Of a stretch of 35,961 bases of DNA, positions 309-35,861 are shown piece by piece. Positions within the stretch are counted from its first letter, which is position 1. Each line of letters opens with the position of its first letter. Position numbers and translations under genes: made by a program. The notes beneath the pieces are model-generated. The model was not told where the DNA came from and did not search any database. It saw only the letters and a program-made list of their open reading frames with translations. This DNA comes from Candidatus Tenebribacter davisii (GTDB lineage Bacteria; Cloacimonadota; Cloacimonadia; Cloacimonadales; TCS61): the NCBI GenBank assembly GCA_030765535.1, contig JAVCCH010000136.1:1-35961 (forward strand), read 5' to 3'.

Positions 309-800
309 ATGAAAAAAATATTAATTATTATATTTGTTGTTGGAATGATTTTTGGATTATGGGCTCAAACTGAAGGCAGTGATTTTTCCACATATAATCC
401 AGGTGCTGTCTACCAGTATTCCGGTTCTCTTACAGGGACAGAACAGCTTAAAATAAGAACTTATATCTGGGGTCAGGTTAGAAAACCAGGTCTCTATATT
501 GTTCCCGATGATACGGACCTGCTAACGTTGATATCATCTGCAGGCGGCCCCACAGAGAATGCAAAATTATCTAAAGTTAAAATTATCCGCTCAACAATGG
601 ATGGTGATAAAATAATTGAAGTTGACCTGAAAGAATATCTGGATACTGGACAACCTGAATTGATCCCGGTATTAAAACCTGGAGATACTGTCATTATTTC
701 CGGTTCAACATATTATGCTTTTACTAAAGCAGTAAATTGGCTATCTGAGATAGCTGTTATTTTAAGTGTATATGTTGCAATATCAAATATCAGCAAATAA
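309..800 (+). CDS. SLBB-domain polysaccharide export protein, short form
   Basis: The 163-residue protein has a signal peptide (residues 1-20, ending LWAQ). An SLBB (soluble-ligand-binding beta-grasp) domain covers about residues 50-130, with IWGQVRKPGLY and a following LISSAGG. A hydrophobic segment lies near the C-terminus (about 141-157). SLBB domains occur in Wza-type outer-membrane exporters. Here the poly-export domain that normally precedes them is missing, so this is a short SLBB protein and not a full Wza. A strong ribosome binding site (AAGGAG) precedes ATG 309. It is 13 bases upstream of the Wzc-type kinase, so a shared role in capsule or exopolysaccharide export is likely. It may be a periplasmic adaptor held by its C-terminal segment, which is inference. 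Confidence 0.8.
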   Translation: MKKILIIIFVVGMIFGLWAQTEGSDFSTYNPGAVYQYSGSLTGTEQLKIRTYIWGQVRKPGLYIVPDDTDLLTLISSAGGPTENAKLSKVKIIRSTMDGDKIIEVDLKEYLDTGQPELIPVLKPGDTVIISGSTYYAFTKAVNWLSEIAVILSVYVAISNISK

Positions 801-813
801 ACTATGAGGTAAT

Positions 814-3102
814 ATGAAAGATCAATACAATCAAGTTAAATTCAACGAGGATTTTGAAGAACAAGAGATTAAATTAAGTGATTATTTAAATATAATTCTT
901 AGATTCAGATGGATAGTAGCAACAATTTTTTTAACAGTGTTTGTCATATCGTTTATATATACTGCAAAAGCACCTCGAATTTATAAGGCAACATCTAAAG
1001 TGCTTTTAGAAGAAAATATGGGCAGTAATCTACTCTTTGCTACAATGAGCAATAAAACTTCTTCTATTAATAATTACATACAGATATTACAAAGTTTCCC
1101 GGTAATGACAATAGCTAATCAAATACTTTTAAGAAATGATGGATATAAGACCTTCCCCATCTCAGAGGCTGAGATCCTTCCAGAATACTATTTAAAAAGA
1201 AACTTGTCTGTTGATACGGAGAGGGAAACTGATGTTTTGATCATAAATTTTGAATCAACTAACCCATTAGAAGCGAAAGAGGCTGCGAATGCTGCATCTC
1301 ATGCACTATTACAACAAGATACTAATTATGCCAGGATAGAATTTAGAAATGCCAAGGAATTTTTGGCAAATCAGCTTGATGAACAAGATCGTCGCTTACG
1401 TTCCTCTGAAGAAGAACTTAGAACATATAAAATTGAACAAGGAATTTCAATGCTTTCAGAAGAAACACAGAAACTTATTGAGCAATCTTCTGACATTACA
1501 GCATTATTAGCTGAAGCAGAAACTGAACTGGACGTTGTAAATAGCCAGCTTGAATTTCTGAAAAAAGAATTAGCTGTACAAGACATCTTACTTTCAGATG
1601 TCAATTCGGTATTGTCCTCACCAATTCTTGAGCAACTAAAAGGAGAAATTGTAACACTCCAAACTCAATATGTTAACTTGCTCACAAAATCTGATTACTC
1701 ACCAGACCATCCCGAACTTATAACACAAAAAGAATCAATTGAGGCTGCTAAACTAAAGCTTGGAGAAGAGATTCAAAGAATTATAAAAGTTAAATCCGGT
1801 TCTGTCGATCCCTTGATCTTCAGATCTAGTTTGATAGAACAGATCTCTACTGCTCAGATAGACCAAAATATTAAATCATCTAAAGTGATCAGTTTGCGAG
1901 CTGTTGTTGAGAAATACAATGAGAAAATGTCTCAACTCCCAGATACTGAAGTACAATTAGCCAGATTAGAACGTAATTATAAGATCAATGAAAAGACATA
2001 TACAATGCTGATTGAAAAATATGAAGAGGCGAAGATCGCTGAAAAATCAAAGATCGGTAAGATTAGAATTGTTGAGGAAGCACGTATTCCAGATGTGCCG
2101 ATTAAACCTAACAAAAAAATGAATATGATGATCGCTATAGTTCTTGGTTTAGGTCTTGGAATTGGAGCAGCACTTTTAATCAATTCACTGGATTCAAAAA
2201 TCAGAACTTTTGATGATGTTCGCAAATTCGTATCATTACCTGTATTAGGAACTATTCCTATAATCCAGACCGATGACTTCGAGCTTGATAATATTGAACA
2301 GAAAATAGCTACAGCAAAAGGACCTGAGAAAGAGATTTTACAAAAAGTCCATCAACAGATCCAGGCTAAATTAATTATGGATTATTCTCCAAAATCTTTT
2401 ACCTCAGAAGCATTTAGAATTTTACGTACGAATATATTATCCCGCAAGAAAAATTCTGATTGTACTACCCTGCTTATAACAAGTTCAGGCCTAAAAGAGG
2501 GGAAATCTACAATTCAGGCTAATATAGCTACTGCACTTGCCCAGATGGATGCGAAAGTAATTTTAGTTGATCTTGACCTTAGAAGACCTATGGTTCACAC
2601 GATTCTTGATTTCGATAAAGAAGTAGGCATAAGTGATTTCCTCATGGACAAATCTGTAAAAATTGAAAGTGTAATTAAGCAATCTAATATTAAAAATCTC
2701 GATATTATAACAAGTGGTATTATCCCACCAAATCCTTCTGAACTGCTTGCTTCCAAACGGATGGATGTTGCAATCAAAGAATTAAAAGAGAAATATGATT
2801 ATATCCTCTTCGATTCTCCTCCAGTTATTGCTGTTACAGACTCTATGGTTATGGCAAAAAAGATCGATTTACTAATTTTAGCGATTCGTGTAGACCAAGC
2901 TGATAAAAATGTTGTTAGGAGAACAAAAGAACTACTGGAAAATATTAATATTAATATTGCCGGAGTAGTAATAAATGGCATTCAACCACATAGATACTAT
3001 AATAGCTACGAATATAATTATTATTACTATTATTATTATGGAAAATCTGAAGAAAAAAAATCTAAGAATAAATTCTTCGGCAAAAATAAATCTCTTTCTT
3101 GA
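814..3102 (+). CDS. Wzc-type polysaccharide chain-length regulator with tyrosine autokinase (BY-kinase)
   Basis: The 762-residue inner-membrane protein controls polysaccharide chain length and export. It has an N-terminal Wzz domain with a membrane segment at about residues 30-50, then a long periplasmic coiled-coil region (about 180-420). A second membrane segment (about 440-460) is followed by a cytoplasmic BY-kinase domain. The kinase shows Walker A (GLKEGKST, about 559-566), Walker A' (ILVDLDLRRP, about 584-593) and Walker B (ILFDSPP, about 663-669). A C-terminal tyrosine cluster has 11 Tyr between residues 728 and 742, the expected autophosphorylation sites. GAGG lies 7 bases before ATG 814. 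The fused chain-length plus kinase layout is the Gram-negative Wzc form. The tyrosine-codon run also contains the start of ispE; the two genes overlap by 65 bases. Confidence 0.93.
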   Translation: MKDQYNQVKFNEDFEEQEIKLSDYLNIILRFRWIVATIFLTVFVISFIYTAKAPRIYKATSKVLLEENMGSNLLFATMSNKTSSINNYIQILQSFPVMTIANQILLRNDGYKTFPISEAEILPEYYLKRNLSVDTERETDVLIINFESTNPLEAKEAANAASHALLQQDTNYARIEFRNAKEFLANQLDEQDRRLRSSEEELRTYKIEQGISMLSEETQKLIEQSSDITALLAEAETELDVVNSQLEFLKKELAVQDILLSDVNSVLSSPILEQLKGEIVTLQTQYVNLLTKSDYSPDHPELITQKESIEAAKLKLGEEIQRIIKVKSGSVDPLIFRSSLIEQISTAQIDQNIKSSKVISLRAVVEKYNEKMSQLPDTEVQLARLERNYKINEKTYTMLIEKYEEAKIAEKSKIGKIRIVEEARIPDVPIKPNKKMNMMIAIVLGLGLGIGAALLINSLDSKIRTFDDVRKFVSLPVLGTIPIIQTDDFELDNIEQKIATAKGPEKEILQKVHQQIQAKLIMDYSPKSFTSEAFRILRTNILSRKKNSDCTTLLITSSGLKEGKSTIQANIATALAQMDAKVILVDLDLRRPMVHTILDFDKEVGISDFLMDKSVKIESVIKQSNIKNLDIITSGIIPPNPSELLASKRMDVAIKELKEKYDYILFDSPPVIAVTDSMVMAKKIDLLILAIRVDQADKNVVRRTKELLENININIAGVVINGIQPHRYYNSYEYNYYYYYYYGKSEEKKSKNKFFGKNKSLS

Positions 3103-3892
3103 TGTTCTTGCAAAACGTCCCGATGGATATCATCAGATTAGAACAATTTTTTCTGAAATAGAACTTGCTGATATTATAAATTTTGCTTTGACAAAAAAAG
3201 GTACTGTTAAAATTTTGTCAGACATAGATTTTGTAAGTGTAGATAAAAATCTCATTTACAAAGTTGCGGTCTTTATAAAAGAAAAATATAATGTGAAATT
3301 TGGTGTAGAAATAGAATTGCAAAAAAAAATACCTATTGCCGCAGGAATGGGTGGTGGAAGCAGTAATGCAGCAAGTACGATAATTGCTCTATCAAAATTA
3401 TGGCAACTTAACCTTAAAAAAAAAGAAATGCATGATATCGCTGAGACATTTGGTAGTGATATTAATTTCTTTTTAGAAGGTGGTTGTGCTTTGGGTGAAG
3501 ATCGAGGTGAAAAGATCCATTATCTTGATGAAATCAAGCTGGATAACATTTTCCTGGTTAATCCGGGAATAAGAATTTCCAGCAAAGAAGCCTATGAGGC
3601 TGTTTCATTAGATGATCACGAAAACAATAATTGGACTAAACTAATCAAGGACAATGACATTCAGTTGTGCTATAATAAACTTCAAGAAGGTGTTTGTAGA
3701 AAATATCCCGAAATCTTAGAGATCATAAATTATCTTGAGGATAACGGTGCAGGGAAAGCAATGCTCTCTGGTAGTGGAGCCACAATAATTGGTTTCTGCC
3801 CTGACCGAGCAACTGCAAAGAAATTTTCAATATACTATTCTAATAGAGGCTATTGGAATTACATTACTAAAACTAAAAGGAGTACAAAATGA
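3038..3892 (+). CDS. ispE: 4-diphosphocytidyl-2-C-methyl-D-erythritol kinase
   Basis: IspE phosphorylates CDP-ME in the MEP isoprenoid pathway (GHMP kinase family, cytoplasmic). With the start at ATG 3038 it has 284 residues, the normal length. Visible motifs are SSAKINLFLDV with catalytic Lys16 and RPDGYH, the ATP loop GMGGGSSNAA (103-112), and GSDINFFL with Asp141. The C-terminal GHMP motif is MLSGSGATIIG. The start lies inside the wzc tyrosine codons (overlap 3038-3102) and has no ribosome binding site. An in-frame ATG at 2975 has GGAG 9 bases upstream but would add a 21-residue Ile-rich leader. The start is therefore uncertain although the gene is not. dxr of the same pathway lies at 26274. 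The gene ends in an ATGA overlap with spoVG. Confidence 0.93.
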   Translation: MENLKKKNLRINSSAKINLFLDVLAKRPDGYHQIRTIFSEIELADIINFALTKKGTVKILSDIDFVSVDKNLIYKVAVFIKEKYNVKFGVEIELQKKIPIAAGMGGGSSNAASTIIALSKLWQLNLKKKEMHDIAETFGSDINFFLEGGCALGEDRGEKIHYLDEIKLDNIFLVNPGIRISSKEAYEAVSLDDHENNNWTKLIKDNDIQLCYNKLQEGVCRKYPEILEIINYLEDNGAGKAMLSGSGATIIGFCPDRATAKKFSIYYSNRGYWNYITKTKRSTK

Positions 3893-4299
3893 ACATTACA
3901 GATGTTAAAGTTTTTCTTAGAGAAAGTAATCAGCTAAAAGCATTCGTTAATATGGTTATAGACGATGCATTTATCATTAGAAACATTAAAGTTATTGAAG
4001 GTGATAATGGTCTTTTTGTTGCAATGCCAAGCCGAAGAGTTAGTTCAGGGGAATACCGTGACATTGCACATCCGATTAATACTGAAACTAGAACTTTGAT
4101 AGAGAATGTCATCATTGAGAAATACAAAGAAGTTCTTAAAGAAGCACTAACTTCTGCTAATGAAAGTTCTGAAAAATCAAAAGAAAAATCAAAAGAAAAA
4201 TCAACAGAAAAACCAGCAGAAGAACCAGCAAAAGAACCAGCAGAAGAACCCGCAGAAGAACCCGCAGAAGAAGTCAAAGAAGTTCCTGCTGCTGAATAA
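3889..4299 (+). CDS. spoVG: SpoVG family RNA/DNA-binding regulator
   Basis: Residues 1-84 match the SpoVG fold: MNITDVKVFL at the start, AFVNMVIDDAFIIRNIKVIEG, FVAMPSRR and YRDIAHPI. SpoVG proteins are small cytoplasmic nucleic-acid-binding regulators; the target here is unknown. A low-complexity tail of about 45 residues follows, first Lys/Glu/Ser-rich and then with repeated PAEE units, ending in PAAE. This makes the protein longer (136 aa) than typical SpoVG (about 85-100). The start overlaps the ispE stop (ATGA) and has AAGGAG upstream, so coupling to ispE is likely. An ispE-spoVG-prs order also occurs in Firmicutes and other phyla. Confidence 0.93.
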   Translation: MNITDVKVFLRESNQLKAFVNMVIDDAFIIRNIKVIEGDNGLFVAMPSRRVSSGEYRDIAHPINTETRTLIENVIIEKYKEVLKEALTSANESSEKSKEKSKEKSTEKPAEEPAKEPAEEPAEEPAEEVKEVPAAE

Positions 4300-19618: not shown

Positions 19619-20692
19619 ATGAATATTATTTATGTATGTTTAAGTGTGATCACGTTATCTTTTCTCTCAGTTTACAGTATTACACCTTATATCATAAAAC
19701 TTGCTAATAAAATTAATTTTCTTGATAATCCAAATGCACGTAAAGTACATAAAAAAGCAACCCCTCTTTTAGGTGGTCTGGCAGTTTTTATCGGTTTTTT
19801 TATTCTAACGATCTACATAGTTCTTATGAATCTGCATTCTTTCAATTATCCCATTATCGGTTATCTGCTGGGTGCATTGATCATTGTATTGGTAGGGATC
19901 ATAGATGACAAAATTGGTATGAAGCCGATAACTAAACTATTAGGGCAGGCGCTTTCCTGCAGCATTTTCCTGTATTCAAATAACCTGTTTGAACTTTTTG
20001 GTCCATTCTATCTAACAATTCCAATTCTATTTCTCTGGATGATTGGACTGATGAATGCATTGAATTTTCTTGATAATATGGATGGGATAATTACCGGCAT
20101 GTCCGGGATTCTTGCCCTTGGTTTTTATGCTTTCAGTTTCATCAGTAAAACTCATGCCGTTGCAGTTCAGGCAAACTTGATGATGCTGTTATCATTAGCA
20201 TTTGCAGGATCTGTTTTTGGTTTTCTACCCTACAATTTTAATCCTGCCAAGATATTTTTAGGTGATGCGGGAAGCATGTTTATTGGATATTTCCTCTCCA
20301 CTATGGGAATCCTTGCAGGCCGTTTAGCAGTTACAAGAATGAATAATCCCATGTTCTATTTACTTCCTGTACTTTTACTCAGTTATGCAATATTTGATAT
20401 ATCACTTGTAAGTTTCATAAGAAAACGCGATGGGAGAAAATTGAGTCAGGGTGGTAAAGATCACTCAACTCATCGTATACATAATGCAATGCAATCACCA
20501 AAAGTGACAGCAATTTTTGTATATTTAATAAATCTGATAATCGTTTTAATAACAATACTCGTCTTTCAAATGGAATCTGTGCATCTATTGATAATTTCAA
20601 CAATATTATTTGCTATTGTTTTCTTATTTTTTGGAAGAAAATTAGATCAGATCCCGGTTATAATCCCAGAAAACCAATTGAAGAATAAATAA
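19619..20692 (+). CDS. WecA/MraY-like undecaprenyl-phosphate glycosyl-1-phosphate transferase
   Basis: This 357-residue enzyme transfers a sugar-1-phosphate from a UDP-sugar to the undecaprenyl-phosphate carrier, starting O-antigen, teichoic-type or other glycan synthesis. About ten to eleven membrane segments are visible. Motifs are VHKKATPLLGGLA, IIDDKIG with Asp96-Asp97, NFLDNMDG (149-156), NPAKIFLGDAGSM (Asp216), and the cytoplasmic DHSTHRIH (281-288). This set matches the WecA/TagO branch more than MraY; the sugar is unknown. GAGGAT precedes ATG 19619. It could feed the polysaccharide exported by the Wzc/SLBB pair at the left end, which is inference. Confidence 0.9.
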   Translation: MNIIYVCLSVITLSFLSVYSITPYIIKLANKINFLDNPNARKVHKKATPLLGGLAVFIGFFILTIYIVLMNLHSFNYPIIGYLLGALIIVLVGIIDDKIGMKPITKLLGQALSCSIFLYSNNLFELFGPFYLTIPILFLWMIGLMNALNFLDNMDGIITGMSGILALGFYAFSFISKTHAVAVQANLMMLLSLAFAGSVFGFLPYNFNPAKIFLGDAGSMFIGYFLSTMGILAGRLAVTRMNNPMFYLLPVLLLSYAIFDISLVSFIRKRDGRKLSQGGKDHSTHRIHNAMQSPKVTAIFVYLINLIIVLITILVFQMESVHLLIISTILFAIVFLFFGRKLDQIPVIIPENQLKNK

Positions 20693-30245: not shown

Positions 30246-33200
30246 TTATTTCATCAGTATCATTTTCTTAGTGCTGTTATAGTTTTGTGTTTTCATTTTA
30301 TAGAAGTAAACACCACTTGCTACTGATTTGTTAGAGTTATCTCTACCATTCCATACGATCTCATAATAATCATTCTCAAGTTCATTATTTACAAGAGTCT
30401 TAACAAGCTGTCCTCTCATGTTGTAAATATTAATTGAGACAGGACCTGCTTCTTTTATTGAGAAGCTGATCTTTGTTGTTGGATTAAATGGATTTGGATA
30501 GTTGCCGGTAAGAGCTGTTACTGTAGGCTTAAGTATATCATCACCAGCATCAATAGATACATTAACAATGTTTGAAAATTCTGATTCTCCATCAGGATCT
30601 TCATAAACAGCTGTTACATTATAAGTATATTCACCACCTGGTACAGCCAAATCTAAATAGAATAGACCTGTACCTGTTGTTGAATCATGATAAATACCAT
30701 CGCGATAGATATTGTAATGAGCAAGAGCTCTAGAATCTGTTTCAACTATAGCTGGTCTAAGAACTCCTTTATCGTTCATACTAACTCGTGCAGGTGCAGA
30801 AATCGGATGTGTTCCAATTGTTCTGCCAGAAGAAGAGCCAACGTATACGTTATCAATGCCTGTATCGGCGTTATCATTTCCTACAACGTTAAATCCGATT
30901 AATACATCTTCACCAGAATAAGCTGCAAGGTCGAGTGAAGTTTCATACCAAGTAAAGTTGTCCCAAACGCCTATATCGCCAAATGTCCAAATAGGATCCC
31001 AAGTTGTTCCACCGTCAATTGAAACCTGGATAAACAGATCACAGTTATCATTCGGATCTACACTCCAGTAGTAGCTACCTTCCCAAGCAAAGGAAACAAT
31101 GTGGTCATCATCAACTGATATTTCAGGAGTTATCAACCATGTATCAATGGTATATCCCCATGATACTGCAGCACCGTAAACACCTTCGAAAGCATAAGCA
31201 TCGGAAATTTCCCATGAATTAGAAGCACCTGTAACCAATTCCCATTCATCAATAAATACACCAGTTTCGAAATCATCTTCGAACATCACATTGCCAACTG
31301 GAGGAGCAGGTACTTCCCATGTTAACATTACATTGTCAACATTAAGAGTTGCCTCTAAGTTTTGTGGTACCCATAAAATCAATTCCATTTCGATATTATA
31401 TTCAACAATATCATTTTCAATAACCACTACAGAACCTTCAAACTCTACATAACCATCAGCAACACATACTACAGGCTGTGTTCCAGGATCTGCTATGATT
31501 GAATAAATTCCATCTGCAGCGGTAGTACCACTGGATGTTCCAACTGTAACTACAGCACCCTCAATAGGATCTGTACCATCAGTTACAATACCATTCACAG
31601 TACCTGAAGCTACAGGAATCAATTCAGCTACAGCTCTGAAATGAAGATCTGTATCACCCCAGAATAACCATGTATCACTGGCTCCATCATAAGTGTATGA
31701 GTTTGTAAAGCTACCAGGCTGAGTGATAGTACAATGAACCTTTCCGAATTCACCACCTTGATTTACCAGGAATCCAATAAAGAAGTTACCTTGAATGTTT
31801 TCAAGCTCAGTAGCGTAAGGACGAAGGTCGATACGTGTCATAGCACTTGTGTTACTGTAACTTGCTTCTGGTTCAACTATAATTGGAGTGATTAAATCTA
31901 CTCCTGGTAGATCATCAACACTAGACCAAACGTGGAATTCATATGGGTCGTTATCTTGACCAGACTGGTCTGTATAGTTTCTAATTAAAGCATAAGCCAG
32001 GTTCAGTTGGTTTCCAGCAGGATTGATGATCAATTCTGCAGCACCAGCACCTTCATTAAATACAGTATAGAAATCTACAAAACCATTATCATAAATGAAA
32101 GGTGTTCCTGCGATATAAACAAATCCTTCAAGTAAACCAGTGTTTGGTTCAGCAGCAGCATCAATAGCTTCTACAGCATAATCTACTTGAGCTCCAGCAT
32201 CTTGAGCTGGAATAGTAAATGTATATACGTCGCCTGTGAAAGATGTATATGGAAGACTAAGAGGATCACCTTCATCAACTGTATAAATCACGTTAGCTTC
32301 GGCAACACCGGAAATATCAATGATAGTGGCATCAAACACATAATCATCAGGTGTTCCTGTATAGAATTCAGGACCTGTATGAGCTATGAATGGTGGGAAT
32401 GTATCTTCGTCGTATGTAGTAAGAATAACATCATCGATCAACATACCAACAGTTACATATCCAGCATCACTTACAAAGTGGAATCTGATAGAAACAGTTT
32501 CATAACCTACTCCTACAAATCCACCAATTGGAATAGTAGTTTGCTGCCATGCACCATCTTCTTCATCGTATGTAGCAAGGTTAGCCCAATCTGTTCCATT
32601 AGTAGAAATATCAAGATACATGTAATCGAATGCTGTTTCTATATCAGACTTATACCAGAAAGATAATTCCGCACCAAAGACTGCAGAGAGATCCCATGGA
32701 ACAGCTAATGTAGAAGAGATATCCCAGTCTAAGCCATAGTCTTCATTAGGGCTTTCTGTCATAGAATGAGTAGGTGAATTTGCACCTTCGTCAGTAAGTC
32801 CCCAAGTACCTTCAAATACCCAGTTGTCAGGTCCACCTTCAAAATCATCAATAAAGGCAATAGTTCCACCAGCTGCTACCAGACTGAAATCAATTATAGT
32901 GTTTCCACCATCTGTAATTTCAGCAGATACAGGAGTTGCAAGTTCAAATCCTGCTGCAGAACATGTAACTTCATAAGTTCCGATTAGCATATCTCCGATA
33001 AGATATGTTCCATCAGCGATTGTAGCAGTAGAATATTCTCCTGCAGCAACAATAGCACCTTCAATAGGATCTGTACCATCAGTTACTGTACCGCTAAGAT
33101 CTCCAAATGCAAAGTTAACTGTAGCAGTATTAGATGCATCTGATTCTCCGAAGTTCCATAAAGCTGTAGCATGATAAATATATTCGCCAGCTGGAACAGC

Positions 33201-35861
33201 AAGATCAACATAAGAAACATCATAAACTGGTTCTGTATTAAGTTGAACAGCATCACGGAAAACATTGAAGCTTAAAAGATCTCTTGAATTATCTGTTGGA
33301 GCTAATTCATCAATCTTAACTGAGTCTAATCTTCTATTTACTTTAGAGCTAAATGTTGGTAGTGCTGCTTCCTTACTGTATGTAAGAAGTTCAGTTCCTT
33401 CACCGCCCATAATATAAACTAATGTTGCCCAATCATATTCAGCTTCACCCCAATCTCCTGGAGTACCTGCATATCCGTGAAGATTTGTAGTAGCACCACT
33501 AAAGAGACTTGATGGGAAACCTGTTGTAGCATTTGTAACAGCTACAGAAACCCAGAAATTATCTGTAACTGTGATAGGTGTAGCTAGAGTATGAAGTGTT
33601 TCATCCCATTGTTCGAGTGCTGTAATCACTTCAGATTCATAAAGAACTGTAGTGCCATCAGCATCATATATTTTGAACGTAAAGGTAGTATCATCTCCCC
33701 ATGGATAAGCAGAATGATGATAAAAACCATGAGATAACTGGCTTAATTCCATTGGATATGAGAAGCCAAAATCTGTTACATCATAGAAAGTTGCTCTTTC
33801 TGGAGTAACCCAAGTTAATGAAGAAGGACCTTGATAATAACTATTCCAACCCCACTGAGTTGGAGCAGTCCAGGCAACGTTTACACCGGAAACATCGACT
33901 TCTGCAGTAAGGTTAACTGGAGGCCAGAGAGTTTCTGGAATCACTATAAGATCAAAATCAACTGTACTAACTACACCAACAACACATTCAACACCAGTTG
34001 TTGTCATTACATCATAACCTGGCATGTCAGCTACTACATCATATGTTCCAGGAACAATATTCATAAAATAGAATCCTGTTTCATCAGCATATACTGAATA
34101 CACATCTTCACCAACTTCAACAGAAATTTCTGTATCTGTAACATCTCCAAATGCATCTAGAGTAACCACACCTGAAATGTAACTTGGTTCAATTATGTGC
34201 CAGCCAAGGAATCCGAATGTATCCTCATCGTTTACAATCCATTCAGAATCATCTGCATTTGTACCGGCAGAAGCAACCCAGTCTGTATTACCAAGAGTAA
34301 TGGCATCTTTTCTTACAAGTGTATGGTTCTTTGTAGCATCTGCTATACCAGCTACTTCCCAACCGTCTCCAGGATCAACCAGATCATAAAGACCAATAAA
34401 ATCAATAATTATAGTGTCACCTTGTGCAATATAACCTAAAGCACGAACATCATCACCATTAAATGCAGTCATATACCATGGGTCACCATAAGCAAAAACC
34501 ACATCAGCCTGATTCAATATTGCTTGATCAGCTTCATCGTTTGCAAGTACATATACATCACCTGCTTCAACAATAGTTTCAGCCTCAAATGGATATATTT
34601 CGCTCCAGGGATTCCCATTGTAGTTTCCATAAATTACAAAGTTCGCTAAATCTATTGTTTCTTCAGTACCATTATAAATTTCAATCGCTTTATTGTTACT
34701 GCTTCCTTCAATATATTCAGAGAAGAATACATTTGGTATTACAACTGCACCAACTATAAAGCTATAAGAAACTTCAGGAGGAGCAGGAGAAGTATAAATT
34801 ACAACATCTTCTTCATTAACGATAACATATGAGTTTTCTCCAGGATAAGAACCTGCTGTGTAATCAACAAGTACAGTTTCGTCATCTTCAACCAAGAAAG
34901 TGAATGTTTCTGGACCAGCTCCTGAAATTATTGTAATATCATCAAGAACGAGAACACCTTCAACAGAAAGGTCTACCATACCACCATTCCAGCCATCACC
35001 ATAACTATCTATTAAGTCGATAGTAAAAGGTACAGCTGTCTCGGAAATAGTTTCAAATTCCCAGATATCATAACCTGTAGTGGTTCCGAAAGCATTGTAT
35101 GGTACTACTGCCCAATAATAGGGTGTTAAAAAACCAAGGTCAGTAAAACTATAAGATGTTACATTACCTAAATCTGTACCATTCTCGATATCAGTAGGAT
35201 CTGTAGTTCCGCCACCATCTGAACCAAAGTAAAGGTAATAGCCGTCAGCACCTGAAGCTGCATTCCAAGAAAGATCTCCATTAACAGGAAGTCTGCTTGC
35301 AAGATCTGCAGGAGCAATTAGTGTTGTAGGATCTGGAGCTGCTGGAACAACATAAAGTTCAGGTCCAGCAACATCATCAACATACATATAATACTGATAA
35401 TTGCTGTAATAATGTATTGCAACATATAGTGTACCAACAGGTAAATCTGCCTTTGTGTATTGTTGCCAATCTGTTGTAGCATCACTTATCTCATCAGACC
35501 ATGTAAAGTCAGTTGCTACATCCATACCTGTAGAAGACCATCCAACTTTGAATAATTCAGTACCATAAGTAGACTTTTGATACCAAAATGATACCGTTTG
35601 ATCACCCACTGCAGTAACAAGCTGAGGTGTGATCATATATTCATCATAAGCGGAGGCAGAGGTATAAGATGAAAATCGTGCTGAATAACTACCTGTATAA
35701 GATTCAGTAGCAGTTTGGGTAATATCATTTGTCGGACTATCAGGGCCCTGAACAATCGTCCAATCTACAGGAGGCCAAGTTTCAAAACCTTCGGTTAATG
35801 CTTGAGCAAAAACCAAAGTTGCGATGAACATCATCATTGTAAATAATAAAATCTTTTTCAT
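30246..35861 (-). CDS. Giant multidomain secreted protein with T9SS-type C-terminal sorting domain
   Basis: The 1871-residue protein has a signal peptide (1-19, LVFAQ). I read the domains as follows. Choice-of-anchor J/cleaved-adhesin type: 22-173, 1000-1150 and 1525-1678 (WPPVDWTIVQG, FIDDFEGGPDNW, FEDDFETG). FN3-like: about 175-275, 645-690, 850-918, 1498-1520 and 1700-1772. A DSYGDGWNGG domain lies at 278-370 and a lamin-tail-like domain at 374-557 (FFSEYIEGSSNNKAIEIYNG). Carboxypeptidase-regulatory-like domains are at 560-640, 918-998 and 1418-1495; the last two share the unit TDGTDPIEGA. The end (1786-1871) is the FlgD-like sorting domain, with GNYPNPFNPTT, NIYNMRGQLVKTL and SGVYFYKM. 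No protease or glycosidase site is seen, so adhesion or surface-layer roles are inferred. AGGAG precedes the start. Confidence 0.93.
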   Translation of the reverse strand: MKKILLFTMMMFIATLVFAQALTEGFETWPPVDWTIVQGPDSPTNDITQTATESYTGSYSARFSSYTSASAYDEYMITPQLVTAVGDQTVSFWYQKSTYGTELFKVGWSSTGMDVATDFTWSDEISDATTDWQQYTKADLPVGTLYVAIHYYSNYQYYMYVDDVAGPELYVVPAAPDPTTLIAPADLASRLPVNGDLSWNAASGADGYYLYFGSDGGGTTDPTDIENGTDLGNVTSYSFTDLGFLTPYYWAVVPYNAFGTTTGYDIWEFETISETAVPFTIDLIDSYGDGWNGGMVDLSVEGVLVLDDITIISGAGPETFTFLVEDDETVLVDYTAGSYPGENSYVIVNEEDVVIYTSPAPPEVSYSFIVGAVVIPNVFFSEYIEGSSNNKAIEIYNGTEETIDLANFVIYGNYNGNPWSEIYPFEAETIVEAGDVYVLANDEADQAILNQADVVFAYGDPWYMTAFNGDDVRALGYIAQGDTIIIDFIGLYDLVDPGDGWEVAGIADATKNHTLVRKDAITLGNTDWVASAGTNADDSEWIVNDEDTFGFLGWHIIEPSYISGVVTLDAFGDVTDTEISVEVGEDVYSVYADETGFYFMNIVPGTYDVVADMPGYDVMTTTGVECVVGVVSTVDFDLIVIPETLWPPVNLTAEVDVSGVNVAWTAPTQWGWNSYYQGPSSLTWVTPERATFYDVTDFGFSYPMELSQLSHGFYHHSAYPWGDDTTFTFKIYDADGTTVLYESEVITALEQWDETLHTLATPITVTDNFWVSVAVTNATTGFPSSLFSGATTNLHGYAGTPGDWGEAEYDWATLVYIMGGEGTELLTYSKEAALPTFSSKVNRRLDSVKIDELAPTDNSRDLLSFNVFRDAVQLNTEPVYDVSYVDLAVPAGEYIYHATALWNFGESDASNTATVNFAFGDLSGTVTDGTDPIEGAIVAAGEYSTATIADGTYLIGDMLIGTYEVTCSAAGFELATPVSAEITDGGNTIIDFSLVAAGGTIAFIDDFEGGPDNWVFEGTWGLTDEGANSPTHSMTESPNEDYGLDWDISSTLAVPWDLSAVFGAELSFWYKSDIETAFDYMYLDISTNGTDWANLATYDEEDGAWQQTTIPIGGFVGVGYETVSIRFHFVSDAGYVTVGMLIDDVILTTYDEDTFPPFIAHTGPEFYTGTPDDYVFDATIIDISGVAEANVIYTVDEGDPLSLPYTSFTGDVYTFTIPAQDAGAQVDYAVEAIDAAAEPNTGLLEGFVYIAGTPFIYDNGFVDFYTVFNEGAGAAELIINPAGNQLNLAYALIRNYTDQSGQDNDPYEFHVWSSVDDLPGVDLITPIIVEPEASYSNTSAMTRIDLRPYATELENIQGNFFIGFLVNQGGEFGKVHCTITQPGSFTNSYTYDGASDTWLFWGDTDLHFRAVAELIPVASGTVNGIVTDGTDPIEGAVVTVGTSSGTTAADGIYSIIADPGTQPVVCVADGYVEFEGSVVVIENDIVEYNIEMELILWVPQNLEATLNVDNVMLTWEVPAPPVGNVMFEDDFETGVFIDEWELVTGASNSWEISDAYAFEGVYGAAVSWGYTIDTWLITPEISVDDDHIVSFAWEGSYYWSVDPNDNCDLFIQVSIDGGTTWDPIWTFGDIGVWDNFTWYETSLDLAAYSGEDVLIGFNVVGNDNADTGIDNVYVGSSSGRTIGTHPISAPARVSMNDKGVLRPAIVETDSRALAHYNIYRDGIYHDSTTGTGLFYLDLAVPGGEYTYNVTAVYEDPDGESEFSNIVNVSIDAGDDILKPTVTALTGNYPNPFNPTTKISFSIKEAGPVSINIYNMRGQLVKTLVNNELENDYYEIVWNGRDNSNKSVASGVYFYKMKTQNYNSTKKMILMK

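Follow-up and report, generated by a model that had tools for sequence, protein, structure and literature searches.

A long overlap between the predicted tyrosine-autokinase gene wzc and ispE, conserved across Cloacimonadota

Long same-strand gene overlaps in phase 1, in which the upstream gene ends inside the downstream one, are a described class. They are held to originate through stop loss in the upstream gene, are typically translationally uncoupled, and are retained since they cannot be shortened to overlaps of 4 or 1 nt (PMC10666635). Coupling by termination–reinitiation belongs to overlaps or gaps of about -8 to +6 nt (PMC10666635). Coupling across longer overlaps is known from phage coat–lysis pairs, which are coupled at -38 and -50 nt, whereas synthetic pairs are uncoupled at -25 nt (PMC12548453). 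On the protein side, the nearest known counterparts of the kinase described here are Escherichia coli Wzc and other BY-kinases with C-terminal tyrosine clusters.

The locus lies in a 35,961-nt stretch of DNA, here called the window, from a Cloacimonadota metagenome-assembled genome of 3.0 Mb in 218 contigs (Candidatus Tenebribacter davisii). Two named Ca. Tenebribacter species are among its close relatives, whose IspE proteins are 78–84% identical to that of the window. The relevant features are as follows.

309..800, + strand: SLBB-domain protein (Pfam SLBB), upstream partner of wzc; this order is kept in loci L146, L147, L148, L154 and L155.
814..3102, + strand: wzc, predicted polysaccharide co-polymerase and BY-type tyrosine autokinase, 762 aa (Pfam Wzz, GNVR, AAA_31).
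2975..2977, + strand: alternative in-frame ATG for ispE, with GGAG at 2962-2965; judged not to be a start.
2995..3039, + strand: tyrosine cluster of wzc, 11 Tyr in 15 codons (codons 728-742, YYNSYEYNYYYYYYY).
3038..3102, + strand: wzc/ispE overlap, 65 nt; ispE lies in the +1 frame, its codon positions 1/2/3 being wzc positions 2/3/1.
3038..3892, + strand: ispE, 284 aa; most likely start ATG 3038, without a Shine-Dalgarno (SD) sequence.
3040..3099, + strand: Lys-rich Wzc tail of 20 residues, following the Tyr cluster; the final KNKSLS is IspE AKINLFL read out of frame.
3074..3103, + strand: IspE SSAKINLFLD motif; its Lys aligns with Lys10 of E. coli IspE.
3100..3102, + strand: wzc stop TGA; its T is the last base of IspE L21 (CTT) and its GA opens D22 (GAT).
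3889..4299, + strand: spoVG (Pfam/NCBIfam SpoVG), overlapping ispE by 4 nt (ATGA).
19619-20692: wecA-like gene.

Both overlapping frames encode recognizable proteins. The wzc product scores 178.2 bits against TIGR01007 (cut-off 108.05), aligns to E. coli Wzc structures, and carries readable Walker A (GLKEGKST), A' (ILVDLDLRRP) and B (YILFDSPP) motifs; with Wzz and GNVR co-polymerase domains, a tyrosine-autokinase P-loop domain and a C-terminal Tyr cluster, it has the make-up of a Wzc-type BY-kinase. Its C-terminal end reads HRYYNSYEYNYYYYYYYGKSEEKKSKNKFFGKNKSLS. The IspE product, which begins MENLKKKNLRINSSAKINLFLDV, scores 212.7 bits against TIGR00154 (cut-off 138.7) and has the N-terminal AKxN motif of its family; PDB alignments of IspE cover it from SSAKINLF onward. 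A search of the source genome for wzc paralogues with a similar tail returned none, only weak matches to P-loop ATPases. At the far end of the window, a 1871-aa protein (30246-35861, - strand) combines choice-of-anchor J and carboxypeptidase-regulatory repeats with a type IX secretion tail (Por_Secre_tail/FlgD_ig).

The arrangement is widespread in the phylum. IspE was searched in 196 genomes and junction DNA was then retrieved, giving a census of 108 Cloacimonadota genomes with an ispE 5' end and upstream DNA. In 104 of these, a wzc with a Tyr cluster lies directly upstream of ispE and overlaps it, in identical phase every time (104/104) and without a single case of a wzc stop before the ispE start. 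The overlap mostly measures -41 to -74 nt, against -65 in the window; being longer than 10 nt, of length 3n+2 and shared by two real genes, it is a long phase-1 same-strand overlap. At 21 ispE loci from other phyla, wzc was never found upstream (0/21). A literature search on the wzc/ispE pair and on Cloacimonadota tyrosine kinases returned nothing relevant.

Four of the 108 genomes lack the overlap (G014, G020, G054, G059). In G054, wzc has been relocated elsewhere in the genome, while a full Wzc was not found in G014, G020 and G059, whose genomes are 73%, 96% and 64% complete. Between the S4/CinA gene and ispE, both G014 and G020 lack the PorU–PorV–lipoprotein–SLBB–wzc block. In the IspE tree, three of the four exceptions stand apart from one another and are nested within overlap-bearing groups, which argues that the overlap is ancestral. 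Separation or loss of wzc with retention of ispE appears to have occurred in at least three lineages. Many forks of this tree are weakly supported; two or more independent events are required by the starred branches.

The block itself, with PorU (a C25 protease), a PorV/Q-like protein, a lipoprotein, SLBB and wzc, is found upstream of ispE in several Cloacimonadota families (L146:5320-12725, L147, L148, L154 and L155; positions 2-800 of the window) and puts type IX secretion genes beside a polysaccharide kinase. The Tyr cluster and tail also vary in size. Loci of family f10, such as L048 and L050, have Wzc Tyr runs of about 12, exceeding that of the window, and the distant relative L110 (G111) has the longest Wzc tail (YAYISEEDDGKKK...SKS), with extra acidic residues past the Tyr cluster, still overlapping ispE.

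A sequence-only reading of the window had described the 11 Tyr in 15 residues at 2995-3039, the ATG at 3038-3040 and the 65 shared bases, and had named a sequencing error in the Tyr repeat as a possible flaw. These coordinates and counts all hold, and the same arrangement in the same phase in 104 of the 108 genomes rules out both chance and sequencing error. The same reading held that the two genes constrain each other and called for a comparison of synonymous sites, and here too the substitution patterns agree.

Substitutions were counted on codon alignments. Within the genus, variation at wzc third positions, which are ispE second positions, is 0.145 over the overlap vs 0.413 in the wzc body, and none of the 442 wzc body windows is as low, which is a strong indication rather than an exact probability, as body windows overlap one another and the genomes share ancestry. 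For the first part of the overlap alone, the value is 0.234, below any of 450 body windows. Over SSAKINLFL, differences in the genus fall almost entirely on ispE wobble bases, and in the genus, in the window's family f1 and in f10, most of the variation in the motif affects wzc position 1, which is ispE position 3.

The wzc stop follows the same logic. It lies inside the IspE AKINLFL[DE] codons in 93 of 104 genomes, at +5, +11 or +23 from the A of AKIN, and is formed via ispE wobble bases: GCT-AA at +5, ATT/CTT/GTT-AA at +11 and CTT-GA at +23. As the stop is thus set by silent ispE bases, the Wzc-terminal KNKSxS is a shadow of IspE AKINLFL. The part of the tail upstream of the ispE start behaves differently. 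Ahead of the likely ispE start in f10, the ten tail codons show variation of 0.13/0.09/0.61 at wzc positions 1/2/3, and amino-acid identity in the tail (0.73) is near that of the wzc body (0.77), a pattern suggesting selection on the Wzc tail as protein. In G054, the relocated Wzc has retained a Lys/Arg-rich tail, GDSKKKRAFWKRLFRKR, and lacks KNKSxS. A role for the tail is suggested by substitution patterns.

The position of the IspE start is less constant than the overlap. In the window, the last Tyr codon TAT (3037-3039) and G 3040 make up ATG 3038-3040, 14 codons before the A of AKIN. In f1, the Tyr run ends in TAT-GGN, giving an ATG, in 27 of 32 genomes, and this junction ATG is the sole canonical start before the motif in 13 of the 32, the window included. 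In three relatives without an adjacent wzc, an ATG that IspE could use lies 13-15 codons ahead of the A of AKIN. The likely start in f10 lies about 10 codons further on, mostly as an ATG or GTG at a distance of 6 codons from that A; it is placed there because variation at wzc-synonymous sites remains free (0.61) as far as this codon. In G018 (L020) and G030 (L018), a TAA in the ispE frame just past the Tyr run excludes the junction ATG, so that IspE must begin at a later ATG, while wzc continues to +44. The ispE of L065 (G059), where wzc is non-adjacent, has no ATG, GTG or TTG in the stretch that runs from the nearest preceding in-frame stop to the motif; it may use a start other than NTG or reflect an assembly fault.

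The idea that the last Tyr codon is specially used as a start was considered and rejected: TAT occurs there in 27 of 32 f1 genomes vs 143 of 219 codons at other Tyr positions, a weak enrichment (p 0.04, uncorrected for relatedness). The overlap is thus general, whereas a start within the Tyr run comes as a by-product of Tyr-Gly codons, mainly in one family, and its position is not conserved outside that family. A special part for the run as a start is unsupported: its ATG falls out of TAT-GGN and gives way to other starts elsewhere.

How ispE is translated allows several readings. Ribosomes translating or finishing wzc might start ispE, so that IspE output would be tied to Wzc and the overlap kept for that purpose; we regard this as possible but doubtful. 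It would fit the SD energy of +3.6 at ATG 3038, the worst of the starts tested in the window, most others being well below 0 (calculated with the usual anti-SD sequence, which may differ from that of the source genome's 16S), and it would fit the lack of an SD at most ispE starts across the phylum. Retention of the overlap in every wzc-adjacent genome (104/104) and the weak pairing of the ispE start in a 91-nt fold (z -1.58) are also in line with coupling, but a 71-nt fold offers no structure to melt (z +1.40). The phage pairs provide a precedent, which is offset by the uncoupled synthetic pairs and by the typical uncoupling of long overlaps, and -65 nt is outside the range of termination–reinitiation. 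Moreover, the separated ispE genes of L017, L031 and L046 likewise have no clear SD, and an open frame alone would suffice for coupling, yet the Wzc tail is conserved as protein. Both coupling and independent initiation in A/T-rich RNA are consistent with the SD-less start. A phylum-wide form of the idea, in which SD-less IspE initiation depends on translation of the overlapping kinase gene and the start mostly precedes the end of the wzc stop by 41-74 nt, strikes us as rather unlikely; if it were true, IspE dosage would follow kinase synthesis.

Metabolic coordination and alternative products of the ispE frame are much less probable. Undecaprenyl phosphate is supplied through the MEP pathway, to which IspE belongs, and polymers built on it are governed by Wzc-type kinases. 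The sequence-only reading suggested that the overlap could couple the kinase's control of exopolysaccharide to precursor supply, and the wecA-like gene in the window would suit such a link. However, the overlap has apparently come apart or disappeared three times or more while ispE stayed in place, the pair is flanked by PorU/PorV/SLBB and, on its other side, by housekeeping genes, and no sequence evidence points to such feedback, which makes the proposal very improbable. Similarly improbable is that IspE starts at ATG 2975 or arises by a +1 frameshift out of wzc, giving an Ile-rich leader or a Wzc-IspE fusion. A GGAG stands nine bases ahead of ATG 2975 (SD energy -6.1) and no stop interrupts the ispE frame from there on, but this ATG is missing in most genus mates (L003, L004, L005, L007, L008, L010) and was rejected as a start. 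Against a leader or fusion stand also the ispE-frame stop between the Tyr run and the motif in G018/G030 and the freedom of wzc-synonymous sites in f10 until the later ATG; no frameshift signal was recognised, by inspection rather than a dedicated search. The Ile-rich reading of the Tyr run, which had been put forward as a product, lies upstream of the likely IspE start and is therefore probably never made.

We consider it probable that the locus is an ancient read-through overlap held by passive lock-in, together with selection on the Wzc tail as protein. Before Cloacimonadota diversified, a wzc directly upstream would have read through into ispE. The gene would then have ended at the first chance stop in its frame, within the invariant AKINLFL[DE] codons of IspE. 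Selection on the Lys/Arg-rich stretch that follows the Tyr cluster, as a part of the kinase, would have kept any earlier stop from being accepted, leaving the final Wzc residues and the exact stop to be dictated by silent ispE bases. In the window's family, Tyr-Gly, usually written TAT-GGN, would supply the ATG used as IspE start. Overlaps in this phase (-8, -11 ... -65) cannot shrink to the usual 4 or 1 nt, so the arrangement would have persisted. Wzc and IspE would act as an ordinary BY-kinase and an ordinary IspE, and ispE would initiate without an SD in A/T-rich RNA, independently or helped by ribosomes translating wzc. Two observations count against passive lock-in: the conserved lack of an SD and of any wzc stop before the ispE start also fit selection for coupling, and the overlap has survived phylum-wide, longer than might be expected of a passive feature.

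The locus is a clear example from nature of a long overlap maintained across a phylum, in which ownership of the shared and flanking bases is visible: the tail ahead of the ispE start belongs to the kinase, the shared motif to IspE. For annotation it carries a warning, since a conserved protein end such as Wzc KNKSxS can be the shadow of a neighbouring gene. The three separated genomes are natural controls for long-overlap translational coupling in bacteria, outside phages.

Downstream, the gene order ispE-spoVG-prs-rplY-pth resembles that of the ispE/spoVG/prs/ctc/pth region in Bacillus subtilis; unlike that region, the window has SLBB and wzc upstream, with wzc overlapping ispE. Cloacimonadota Wzc shares with E. 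coli Wzc and other BY-kinases the domain order Wzz, GNVR, kinase and Tyr cluster, but whereas the aligned E. coli structure sequence has about 5 residues past the last Tyr, Cloacimonadota have 11-34, mostly 20-24, and Lys/Arg-rich. In phage MS2/fr coat–lysis, the downstream start lies 38-50 nt before the upstream stop, similar to the 41-74 nt typical of wzc/ispE; the phage coupling is proven by mutation (PMC12548453), whereas that of wzc/ispE is only possible, and no strong regulatory hairpin was found at wzc/ispE. With the long phase-1 unidirectional overlaps, wzc/ispE shares the strand, the phase (-8/-11/.../-65), an upstream gene ending inside the downstream one, and a match to the published account of stop-loss origin and retention (PMC10666635). 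It differs from them in being conserved across nearly a whole phylum while start and stop shift, and in joining a kinase tail to the invariant N-terminal motif of a usually essential enzyme. The wzc/ispE overlap is thus a new, well-conserved example of an already known type of long overlap.
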